Assembly: GCF_001687565.2 (NCBI RefSeq)
Contig: NZ_CP016534.2
Span: forward strand, 2,980,501-3,044,500
DNA: 64,000 nucleotides
Direction of reading: 5' to 3'
Origin: Planococcus antarcticus DSM 14505
GTDB taxonomy: Bacteria; Bacillota; Bacilli; Bacillales_A; Planococcaceae
Of the stretch, positions 2,236 through 54,281 are shown piece after piece; within the stretch, counting starts at the first letter, position 1; each line of letters opens with the position of its first letter. A program made the position numbers and the translations under genes. The notes under the pieces were generated by a model. It was not told where the DNA came from and did no database searches. It saw nothing but the letters and a program-made list of their open reading frames with translations.

Positions 2236-3937
<1,702 letters not shown>

Positions 3938-4953: not shown

Positions 4954-5113
4954 CTAGTTTTACGCATTTTCTACTGAACGTACGTATTTTTTTCTAAACA
5001 CGCGTGTTTTATGCTGAGCGTGCATATCCTTTTCTGAGCGTGCGTATTTCCTGCTAAACGTGCGTATTCTTTGCTGAACGTGCACACCGTTTTTGAACGA
5101 CGAAAAACTCATC
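4954..5113. repeat. Degenerate 20-bp tandem array, about 8 units
   Basis: Units start at 4954, 4974, 4994, 5014, 5034, 5054, 5074 and 5094, exactly 20 bp apart. The middle units read close to CTGAACGTGCGTATTCTTTG; the left (CT.A.C) half is most conserved, and the outermost units are degraded. It lies between the icmF terminator (5153-5192) and the small membrane gene ending the rpoE side (4782). There is no open frame or hairpin. The rest of the 4783-4953 stretch is AT-rich with nothing recognised. Related arrays are at 39706-39898 and 54198-54281. Confidence 0.8.
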
Positions 5114-39659: not shown

Positions 39660-39685
39660 AAAAGCCGCCTTTTGGGCGGCTTTTT
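39660..39685 (+). terminator. hemQ terminator
   Basis: AAAAGCCGCC-TTTT-GGGCGGCTTTTT directly after the stop codon. Confidence 0.92.
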
Positions 39686-39705: not shown

Positions 39706-39760
39706 GCACCTCGCGGACCCATTTTCGCACCTCAAACGTCCAAGACTGCACCTCGCCATG
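39706..39760. repeat. Short-core array, GCACCTC core, three units at 21 bp
   Basis: GCACCTC occurs at 39706, 39727 and 39748, exactly 21 bp apart, with unrelated 14-bp fillers. It lies between the hemQ and ywdK terminators and directly before a second array with a different core. Confidence 0.65.
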
Positions 39761-39804
39761 GAATCAGCGACGAATCTTCGCTCATTTTTCCCATTTATTT
39801 GGAT

Positions 39805-39898
39805 ATACTTTCTTATTTGGGTAAAATACTTTCCGTTTAAGGACAAATACTTCCTGAATCAGCATAGATACTTTCCAAATCACTCTAATTACTTTCCA
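39805..39898. repeat. Short-core array, ATACTTTCC core, five units at 21 bp
   Basis: Cores at 39805, 39826, 39847, 39868 and 39889 (ATACTTTCT, ATACTTTCC, ATACTTCCT, ATACTTTCC, TTACTTTCC), each exactly 21 bp from the next, with variable 12-bp fillers. Read on the minus strand the core is GGAAAGTAT, close to the GGACAGTAT core at 54198-54281. Confidence 0.8.
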
Positions 39899-39904
39899 CA
39901 ACTC

Positions 39905-39938
39905 CAAAAAGGACAATCCGCGTAAAGCGGATTGTCCT
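39905..39938 (-). terminator. ywdK terminator
   Basis: GGACAATCCGC / GCGGATTGTCC stem with a 5-base loop; TTTTTGG follows on the minus strand. Confidence 0.9.
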
Positions 39939-39949
39939 CCCACACTCTA

Positions 39950-40327
39950 TTACAATGCTTTTACTGCGGCAATGATGACCATTACCCAAGCGGCGATGAA
40001 CGCAACGCCGCCGATTGGCGTAACCGCACCAAGAACGCTGATGCCGGTTAAGCTCAATACATATAGGCTGCCTGAGAAAATGACGATTCCGGCAAGCATT
40101 AAATAGCCCGCCCAATTAAGAGCTCCAAGCGAACCAAGCAATGATGAGCTCATCAAAATCGCGACAACGATCAAGCCGATCGAGTGGAACATTTGATATT
40201 GTACGGCAGTTTGCCATGTATACAAATACTTATCTGCAACTCGACCTTCCAAGAGATGCGCGCCGAACGCGCCAAATGCGACAGACAGGAGGGCGTTAAC
40301 CGCTCCGGCAATCAAGAAAAACTTCAT
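39950..40327 (-). CDS. ywdK: DUF423 family membrane protein (YwdK)
   Basis: 125 residues with four membrane helices (about 5-25, 45-63, 70-90, 97-120). Family signature GAFGAHLLEG near the N-terminus and ALNWAGYLMLAGIVIFSGSL. The function is unknown. Co-directional with ywdI and ung, as in B. subtilis. Confidence 0.9.
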   Translation of the reverse strand: MKFFLIAGAVNALLSVAFGAFGAHLLEGRVADKYLYTWQTAVQYQMFHSIGLIVVAILMSSSLLGSLGALNWAGYLMLAGIVIFSGSLYVLSLTGISVLGAVTPIGGVAFIAAWVMVIIAAVKAL

Positions 40328-53025: not shown

Positions 53026-54231
53026 ATGACAATTACTGAACAGGTCGATGCCTTGTTCGAAGAAATGGTGGAAATAAGAAGACATCTCCATATGAACCCA
53101 GAATTGTCGCATCAAGAAATCACGACTCCTGCTTTTATTGCAGATCAATTAGAAGAAATGGGCGTTGAAGTTCGCCGTGGGGTTGGCGGACGCGGGGTTG
53201 TTGGTACAATCCGTGGCGGCAATCCCGGCAAGACGATTGCGTTCCGTGCAGATTTCGATGCTTTGCCGATTGACGATCAAAAAGATGTACTCTATAAATC
53301 CACGGTCCCCGGCGTTATGCACGCTTGTGGACACGACGGCCATACCGCTGCGTTACTTGGTTTTGCTAAAGCAATGATCGCCATTCAAGACGAATTGCCT
53401 GGAACGATTGTGTTAATCCATCAATTTGGTGAGGAACTATCGCCGGGCGGTGCACGTGCAATGATTGAAGACGGTTGTCTAGAAGGTGTTGATGCCGTTT
53501 ACGGTGCTCACTTGCAAAGCAAAATGGAAAGTGGTCGCATTTATTTGCGAGACGGCTTTTTGCAGGCTTCTGAAGATGCCATCAAAATTATTGTCCACGG
53601 CTTTGGAACTCACGGTGCAGAACCTCATCAAGGGGTCGATCCGATTTTAGCAGCGAGTCATATCATGGTCGCACTTCAATCGATTGTCAGCCGCAATGCG
53701 GATCCATTGAAAGAACTGGTCGTCTCTATCGGTAAATTCCATGCCGGTGACGCCGATAACGTTATTTCAAGCAACGCTGTTCTGGAAGGCACCATCCGTG
53801 TATTTGATCCCGAACTTCGCATACTTGCAGGACAGCGTTTGCGGACGATTGTGGAAAATGTCGCCATCGCTATGGGCGCCACTGCCGAATTGATTATCGA
53901 AACGGGATATGACTCACTTTGGAATCACCTCGCCGAAACGGATATTGTTCGTGCCGCTGCGCGCGGCGTGCTGGGGGACGAAAATGTAGTGGAAATTGAT
54001 CCGGTTATGCCAGTTGAAGATTTCACTTATTATACGCAGACAAAACCGGGCGCTTATTTCTTCGTCGGCGCAAAAATGGATGACGAGAGCGTTGTTTACC
54101 CACATCATCATGAAAACTTCGATTTTAATGAAAACGCCATGCTGGTGACAGCAAAAGTCTTCGCTGCGATTTATTTTGAGGCGCAAGAAACGGTTATGGA
54201 CAGTATTTTAGTTGATTTGGATAGTATTTGA
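53026..54231 (+). CDS. M20 family amidohydrolase (N-acyl-amino-acid/hippurate hydrolase type)
   Basis: 401 residues. Metal site motifs: GVMHACGHDGHTAALLG, HQFGEELSPGGARAMI and the late HHHENFDFNENAM; a lid/dimerisation domain lies in the middle (about 185-300). The family hydrolyses N-acyl or N-carbamoyl amino acids. The last residues (MDSILVDLDSI) and the stop codon are encoded by the first two units of a tandem repeat array that continues past the gene, so the C-terminal tail looks added. Divergent from the dipeptide epimerase; RBS AAAGGAG. Confidence 0.88.
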   Translation: MTITEQVDALFEEMVEIRRHLHMNPELSHQEITTPAFIADQLEEMGVEVRRGVGGRGVVGTIRGGNPGKTIAFRADFDALPIDDQKDVLYKSTVPGVMHACGHDGHTAALLGFAKAMIAIQDELPGTIVLIHQFGEELSPGGARAMIEDGCLEGVDAVYGAHLQSKMESGRIYLRDGFLQASEDAIKIIVHGFGTHGAEPHQGVDPILAASHIMVALQSIVSRNADPLKELVVSIGKFHAGDADNVISSNAVLEGTIRVFDPELRILAGQRLRTIVENVAIAMGATAELIIETGYDSLWNHLAETDIVRAAARGVLGDENVVEIDPVMPVEDFTYYTQTKPGAYFFVGAKMDDESVVYPHHHENFDFNENAMLVTAKVFAAIYFEAQETVMDSILVDLDSI

Positions 54232-54281
54232 AAAGTTCGGACAGTATTTCGTCCAATCTCGACAGTATCTCCTATATTTGG
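54198..54281. repeat. Short-core array, GGACAGTATTT core, four units, overlapping the M20 stop codon
   Basis: Cores at 54198 (GGACAGTATTTT), 54219 (GGATAGTATTTG), 54239 (GGACAGTATTTC) and 54260 (CGACAGTATCTC), spaced 21, 20 and 21 bp with variable fillers. The first two are coding, the last two untranslated. The core resembles GGAAAGTAT of the 39805-39898 array read on its minus strand. Confidence 0.75.

Follow-up and report, generated by a model that had tools for sequence, protein, structure and literature searches.

What keeps five short sequence cores in exact 21-bp phase in the gap between two convergent genes, while the sequence between them varies? We pursued this question for the array at positions 39805 to 39898 of a 64,000-nucleotide stretch of Planococcus antarcticus DSM 14505 (contig NZ_CP016534.2, positions 2,980,501 to 3,044,500; hereafter the window), in its own genome (G000) and in relatives of the same genus (G201, G203, G209 and others); the genus set comprised 46 genomes, the own genome included. 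Sequence comparisons make it quite probable that the array is a phased row of binding sites for a cognate protein, and the candidate partner combines a NERD nuclease-like domain, a zinc ribbon and a predicted winged helix.

The array and its core

39805..39898, forward strand: type A array of five 21-bp units with the core TACTTTC[C/T]
39790..39805, forward strand: leader CCCATTTATTTGGATA, also found 5′ of many type A arrays

The original prediction, made from the letters of the window, had reported five cores in exact 21-bp phase, and we confirmed all five starts (39805, 39826, 39847, 39868, and 39889). The core sequences are, in order, ATACTTTCT, ATACTTTCC, ATACTTCCT, ATACTTTCC, and TTACTTTCC. 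No other site of the window has five copies of one 7-mer with at most one mismatch to the first copy, at periods of 12 to 39. The NERD gene of this array lies 1 kb past the window edge and is flanked on both sides by TACTTTCC arrays.

NERD genes often lie beside arrays with their own core

A gene between two type A arrays was found to encode a NERD-domain protein. PF08378 (NERD) scored above the Pfam cut-off in 10 of 10 proteins tested (46.9 to 70.5 bits, with a cut-off of 22.1), and the nuclease motif D..ExK was invariant in 23 NERDs. As for the other neighbors, among 20 Pfam-scanned proteins encoded near G201 and G203 arrays, the aldo/keto reductases (three) were the only family that recurred, and one protein was a NERD. 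Across the genus set, the 30 genomes with type A triples (three successive exact cores) held 2 to 11 NERD matches each, and 15 of the 16 genomes without such triples held none or one match to the type A NERD (G007 held four). Type A NERD genes, encoding proteins at least 60% identical to that of G201, occurred in 23 of the 46 genomes, and all 23 of these genomes carried type A triples.

We also scanned NERD flanks without assuming a core. The 70 loci, made up of the 30 best matches and 40 chosen ones, were reduced to 69 when one duplicate was dropped. A 20- or 21-bp array was located within 350 bp at 46 of the 69 loci, and on both sides at 24 of them, compared to 10 of 400 control open reading frames (ORFs) of at least 250 aa (2/185 in G000, 8/103 in G209, and 0/112 in G206). 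The only periods found in NERD flanks in the genus were 20, 21, and their double, 40. A stricter count set aside the type A loci, 23 in number, since this subfamily had pointed to the NERD proteins in the first place, and another four loci whose arrays were known beforehand; it gave 25 of 42, with both sides occupied at 10. Array-poor genomes contributed seven NERD loci, and an array stood on one side at three of them. The core differed by NERD subfamily, with GCAAACAA, RCGTGCRTA (20 bp), GC[AG]TATTT, TTAC[AC][TC]GAACTTT, GATCATAGA, AATACGACCAG, and others represented. An GCAAACAA array that had been an orphan in the unbiased sample (L231) proved to sit 57 bp from its own NERD gene (L348). Similarly, the NERD gene G000:C1:3327952-3328866 of the own genome is adjoined by a type E array, a relative of the array at 5017..5096 of the window.

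The pairing extends beyond the genus. Outside the genus, 80 genomes were chosen for a search with a profile of 23 NERDs, and 33 of them, from 27 of 54 genera, had matches. In other Bacilli, a 20- or 21-bp array was present within 450 bp at 16 of 30 NERD loci (one locus per genome), a count for which the control rate was taken from the window's genus and not from the same genomes. Each of the 16 had its own core (for example, AGACGGATAGAA, CGCTCTATC, TTATGAGC, and CGCCGATAT). Arrays stood on both sides at four of these loci, with L410, whose record is incomplete, as a possible fifth; besides 20, 21, and 40, the only flank period was 33, seen once.

Two residues of the predicted winged helix vary with core base 5

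The fifth base of the core was read in the arrays flanking the 23 type A NERD orthologues. It was mainly G in 13 (with one A in G203 and one T in G208) and mainly T in nine (G194 having six T and four A). G214 was mixed and was left out of the column test, and the partial G112 protein is missing from the C-terminal columns, leaving 9 T-core and 12 G-core orthologues. Among the 222 columns tested, residue 307 was Y in 9/9 T-core and F in 12/12 G-core orthologues, and residue 290 was T, V, or A in 9/9 T-core and S in 12/12 G-core orthologues. Residue 297 was K or R with T cores and A, V, T, or M with G cores, with one exception, and column 238 also separated the two groups, only through holding nine residue types. 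In a structure model (pLDDT 90.4), residues 290 and 297 fall in helix 289-298, the third helix of a predicted C-terminal winged helix, and 307 lies between the two wing strands. Residue 290 is a predicted recognition helix residue and 307 a predicted wing residue, and we infer that the winged helix binds the core. The T/G label changes four times on the NERD tree, every change being forced by supported branches, and five times on the hemQ tree, where three are forced. Close relatives are split by it, with G105 (T) set apart from G097, G112, G197, and G026 (G).

Taken together, the NERD-array pairing, the private cores, the two-residue covariation, and the selection on the core described below are computational results. 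Several results weigh against the reading of the arrays as NERD binding rows. By the strict scan, 23 of the 69 NERD loci in the genus lacked an array (six of the 23 are type A, some with chained cores by a core-based reading), as did 14 of the 30 loci in other Bacilli, where five of the 14 were weak partial matches. Of the 23 genomes that lack a type A NERD, seven carried type A triples, and G187 has 15 TTT triples (T at core base 5; TGT denotes the G form) with no NERD more than 39% identical to the query among the matches listed. No NERD partner was found for type B (GCACCTC) arrays, which share the 21-bp format, and no NERD was present in the 8-kb loci around Neobacillus and Bacillus arrays (8 loci). 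The covariation tests were uncorrected for kinship. Finally, when triples were counted genome-wide, flanking arrays included, the majority base agreed with the resident type A allele in only 16 of the 23 genomes; the other seven (G197, G026, G097, G088, G204, G194, and G079) hold 7 to 11 NERD matches each, and another NERD paralogue may serve the other core form there.

Selection keeps the core and its spacing

The original prediction had suggested selection on core and spacing and had proposed an alignment of orthologous gaps. In five orthologous arrays (24 units) of the sister species G201 and G203, core positions 1-4, 6, and 7 mismatched at 1 of 144 sites and position 5 differed in 2 of 24 units, while the filler mismatched at 39 of 190 sites. 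The cores are therefore kept relative to the fillers, and the suggested selection is supported. A comparison of G000 with G201 used six orthologous arrays whose flanks match. These mismatched at 4 of 180 core positions; position 8 differed in 15/30 units and position 5 in 26/30, including every unit (25/25) of the five arrays with the TTT form in G000.

One clade of six genomes had TGT triples only (36, 33, 40, 27, 22, and 9), and five relatives were nearly all TTT (TTT/TGT counts of 18/1, 36/0, 15/1, 12/2, and 15/1). Across this switch at position 5, filler identity was 0.45 for orthologous arrays and 0.37 for mismatched ones, with 4 of 120 matchings as high. Because orthologous fillers are slightly more alike than mismatched ones, the core base may have been substituted in situ; conversion that overwrote the arrays may be the alternative. 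We note that the second type A array of the window (54185..54267) retains the TACTGTCC form, although the arrays of its own genome are mostly TACTTTCC.

Anatomy and distribution of the arrays

A type A element consists of a leader near TCCANTTANTTGGATA followed by mostly four or five units of TACT[T/G]TC[C/T/G], each continuing with R, an A/T-rich stretch of three positions, some six unconstrained positions, and [A/G]AA. Fillers had been described as lacking similarity, which is too strong, as several filler positions (9, 12, and 20-21) are constrained. In 26 own-genome units, position 9 was always A or G and positions 20 and 21 were A in 100% and 96%, respectively, and in 100 units of G201 and G203, position 12 was T in 99%; freely varying filler is limited to about positions 13-18. 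All 26 own-genome spacings were 21 bp, and of 111 spacings in G201 and G203, 100 were 21 bp and 11 were 20 bp.

A scan for spaced words, compared with shuffled sequence, had also been proposed, and its outcome agreed with the expectation of a preferred spacing. It covered 464 kb (the window plus 20 stretches of 20 kb taken at even intervals from the own genome) at periods of 12 to 40, and required four copies of an 8-mer, at least 7/8 identity between neighbors, and diverged filler. Five arrays were recovered, four at period 21 and one at period 20, with none at other periods; five Markov shuffles of the set yielded one match in total and none at periods 20 to 22. Run on 200 kb from each of two other genomes, the scan detected six arrays in G209, mostly with different cores, and none in G206. 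The pattern TACTTTCC-N13-TACTTTCC (at most two mismatches) occurred 58 times in the own genome, compared to 13 for the reversed pattern, and the 58 matches fall in about 16 places as grouped by eye. As a single word, TACTTTCC was no commoner than its reversed control in the 464 kb (21 versus 24), and we rejected the idea of a regulon of scattered single core sites.

Among the 46 genus genomes, exact triples of TACTTTCY were present in 17, of TACTGTCS in 25, and of either in 30; GCACCTC triples occurred in 23 (own genome included), triples of the 20-bp type in 8, and reversed-control triples in none. A leader with a triple was found in 25 of 261 genomes of an order sample (all of the same family), every one of them in the window's genus, and exact type A triples in 10 of 398 genomes across the class, own included, again all in the genus. 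In a display of 22 named loci, among at least 80 listed, the array carriers were five Planococcus or Planomicrobium loci and three of Neobacillus rhizophilus, with five looser arrays in Metabacillus or Bacillus, and the remaining nine being microsatellites or other repeats. The leader was clear in L032 and L034 and in all three loci from Neobacillus. The latter (L036, L063, and L110) carry type A elements of six units; these share the leader, and their units are alike and follow one another in the same order, at five displayed places outside the genus.

Arrays lie near gene ends. A gene 3′ end was 44 to 146 bp away in 10 of 12 own-genome array gaps, the other two being divergent; in G201 and G203, the corresponding distances spanned 6 to 1221 bp. 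Convergent gaps were overrepresented in the own genome (5/12 array gaps versus 14/146 gaps of 150 to 800 bp; Fisher 0.007), a statistic that rests on a crude ORF caller; they made up 4/14 array gaps in G201 and 2/10 in G203. In tandem gaps, orientation to transcription showed no clear preference (12 versus 9). The terminus third of the chromosome, with the GC skew turning near 1.9 Mb, holds 1 of 16 own type A loci.

A possible route of array spread

How might such arrays arise at so many gene ends? NERD genes are often found beside or between arrays with the core of their own subfamily, and other intergenic gaps contain further arrays. The spacing of 20 or 21 bp, two helical turns, would let several NERD molecules stack on one face of the DNA. 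The NERD domain, with its invariant D..ExK motif, may be an active nuclease or nickase. The enzyme would nick or cut at its arrays and so drive, through recombination, the copying of arrays and occasionally the replacement of the gene that encodes it. This copying step, which outwardly resembles the spread of repetitive extragenic palindromes (REP) with their RAYT transposases, is the least certain part, and we put it forward tentatively, at slightly less than an even chance.

Two sets of loci bear on it. An array at 1495k in G201 and 1550k in G203 matches the array at 574k and 571k, respectively, together with its terminator (loci L206, L221, L208, and L223); the G203 copy takes in about 75 bp of the end of the neighboring gene, and the match stops just past the last core. 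This is the trace expected of recombination or conversion at arrays, and it fits, but does not prove, a nuclease-driven, RAYT-like role. In addition, at the same distance from hemQ as the type A NERD gene, G209, G159, G200, G202, G183, and G187 carry a NERD only 36 to 41% identical to it, and GC[AG]TATTT arrays adjoin this hemQ-side NERD in G209, G159, and G200; a diverged NERD with another core at the same place suggests allele replacement.

In its broadest form, the reading of arrays as NERD binding rows would make NERD plus phased arrays a widespread, undescribed system of Bacilli, in which a multi-copy family of sequence-specific nucleases, each with a private 20- or 21-bp array code that switches along lineages through changes in the winged helix, drives the spread, conversion, or upkeep of arrays at gene ends, as a NERD counterpart of RAYT-REP and of homing. 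We regard this wider proposal as evenly balanced. The pairing itself points to likely DNA targets for NERD proteins, a family common in bacteria for which very few functions are known, and accounts for intergenic repeats of a kind that repeat finders overlook, since nothing but a short core is conserved in them. The joint variation of the core base and the two predicted recognition residues, across at least four switches, also offers a natural protein-DNA code that is directly testable. A further question is why the gene ends of one chromosome should carry several private-code rows of sites for nuclease-like proteins.

Alternative explanations

The arrays could instead be NERD-bound chromosome or transcription devices (roadblocks, insulators, or nucleoid anchors) with no DNA copying. 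Selection keeps the core in arrays far from the NERD gene, and the position at gene ends, often in convergent gaps, and the scarcity in the terminus third would suit such a role. Against it stand the invariant nuclease motif in the 23 NERDs, the array-poor genus genomes, most of which manage without arrays, the absence of a clear direction in tandem gaps, and the type E arrays of G209, which do not avoid the terminus; we consider a pure device rather unlikely. This bears on the original prediction of a binding array for a nucleoid or topology protein: the protein-binding part is supported, now with a candidate NERD partner, and the nucleoid or topology role was not shown, the partner being a nuclease-like winged-helix protein. 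It is improbable that the arrays belong to a defense or conflict system, in which a sequence-specific nuclease is kept on chromosomal arrays or aimed at core-bearing invaders. No defense family matched above cut-off in three proteins, a result that does not cover defense genes neighboring NERD, and no viral contig held a matching triple array. BLAST gave chance-level matches only (one plasmid record, E 0.3; 26 phage records, best listed E 0.4), and a phage or plasmid origin was rejected.

Neutral repeats born by slippage that happen to keep a core would explain the roughly 18 near-identical type B units in G044 and the long alternating type E arrays in G168. They would not be expected to drift in the filler alone between sister species, to recur at periods 20 and 21 only in an unbiased scan, or to be paired with NERD genes, and we give this explanation almost no weight. 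The readings as a heptad repeat within a coding sequence, as a structured RNA, and as an array of CRISPR type are, in our judgment, equally remote. A period of 21 is a multiple of three, but none of the frames stayed open in every one of the 11 arrays tested (the best did so in 7), and 20-bp spacings also occur in G201 and G203. Folding was no better than in shuffles (z of -0.78 and 0.64), and all 10 Rfam matches fell under the gathering score. A constant core with variable filler recalls repeats and spacers; however, the fillers change by point substitution at fixed places.

Relation to known systems

In RAYT-REP systems, a gene is flanked by copies of a short extragenic repeat, further copies of which are scattered elsewhere, and protein and repeat specificity covary. 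NERD genes are likewise flanked by their own repeats, which also occur in trans, but the candidate partner is a NERD/PD-(D/E)XK-like protein with a predicted winged helix and not a Y1 transposase, and the repeats are phased and direct rather than palindromic hairpins. A RAYT/Y1 partner was rejected, as Y1_Tnp genes do not track arrays: PF01797 is absent from array-rich G201, G044, G058, and G209, and array-poor genomes, G206 among them, have it. Plasmid iterons and par centromeres consist of direct repeats in rows, with a repeat length near two helical turns and a cognate protein that binds them. The present arrays share this format, with binding inferred; they differ in being chromosomal and present in many copies, with divergent filler and a NERD partner, and no plasmid relative was found. 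Compared to CRISPR arrays, the 13-bp fillers are inherited and drift by substitution rather than being acquired as spacers, and cas families were absent among the 20 array-flanking proteins scanned with Pfam.

STAR elements of staphylococci, like the present arrays in outline, are direct repeats interspersed among intergenic regions, in which the motif is conserved and the spacers differ by locus (PMC3532100). Their motif is a GC-rich 14-mer with spacers of at least 40 bp, their loci are not shared between species, and the available text names no partner protein (PMC3532100); here an 8-bp core alternates with 13 bp of filler, and several arrays are orthologous between species, with matching flanks. 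The candidate partner carries the same NERD domain (PF08378) as SmdA, a membrane-attached cell-morphology protein for which the accessible text reports no link to arrays (PMC9040797). The SmdA authors state that, to their knowledge, bacterial NERD function had never been studied (PMC9040797); a 2025 paper on pXO1, which states that nuclease activity has been demonstrated for the pXO1 NERD, disagrees in print with that statement. A figure legend of a CRISPR clustering paper lists NERD as a putative CRISPR auxiliary gene. We found no description of the arrays or of the NERD-array pairing in the open-access literature, subscription papers lying outside this scope, and the pairing looks undescribed.

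Other features of the window

39660..39685, forward strand: terminator-like hairpin of the upstream gene
39706..39754, forward strand: type B array, three GCACCTC cores at 21 bp, in the same gap as the 39805 array
39910..39938, reverse strand: terminator-like hairpin of the downstream convergent gene
54185..54267, reverse strand: second type A array, four units, mainly of the TACTGTCC form
5017..5096, forward strand: type E array, 20-bp period, core RCGTGCRTA, with degenerate copies just upstream

The gene upstream of the first hairpin is one that we take to be hemQ-like, and the downstream convergent gene (39950-40327) is presumably DUF423-like. Both hairpins come from a reading of the sequence and were not listed by the terminator scan; as originally described, the 39805 array lies between the two terminators of convergent genes. 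The type B cores start at 39706, 39727, and 39748. The flanks of the 54185..54267 array match the site of a G201 TACTGTCC array (L212), and the type E array at 5017..5096 sits upstream of two minus-strand genes.

The gap after hemQ in G105 (L178) contains a further 21-bp core, CCGCAACTAA, by GCACCTC units and decayed TACTATCC elements. In L218 of G203 (3025-3510) and L210 of G201 (2781-3220), entire elements with their flanks are tandemly triplicated in one gap, with a step of 186 bp in G203. A palindrome, TTTCCCGGGAAA, which we take to resemble a Noc binding site, was seen near the downstream gene in three of the gaps after hemQ in L171-L174 (G202, G200, G204, and G208).
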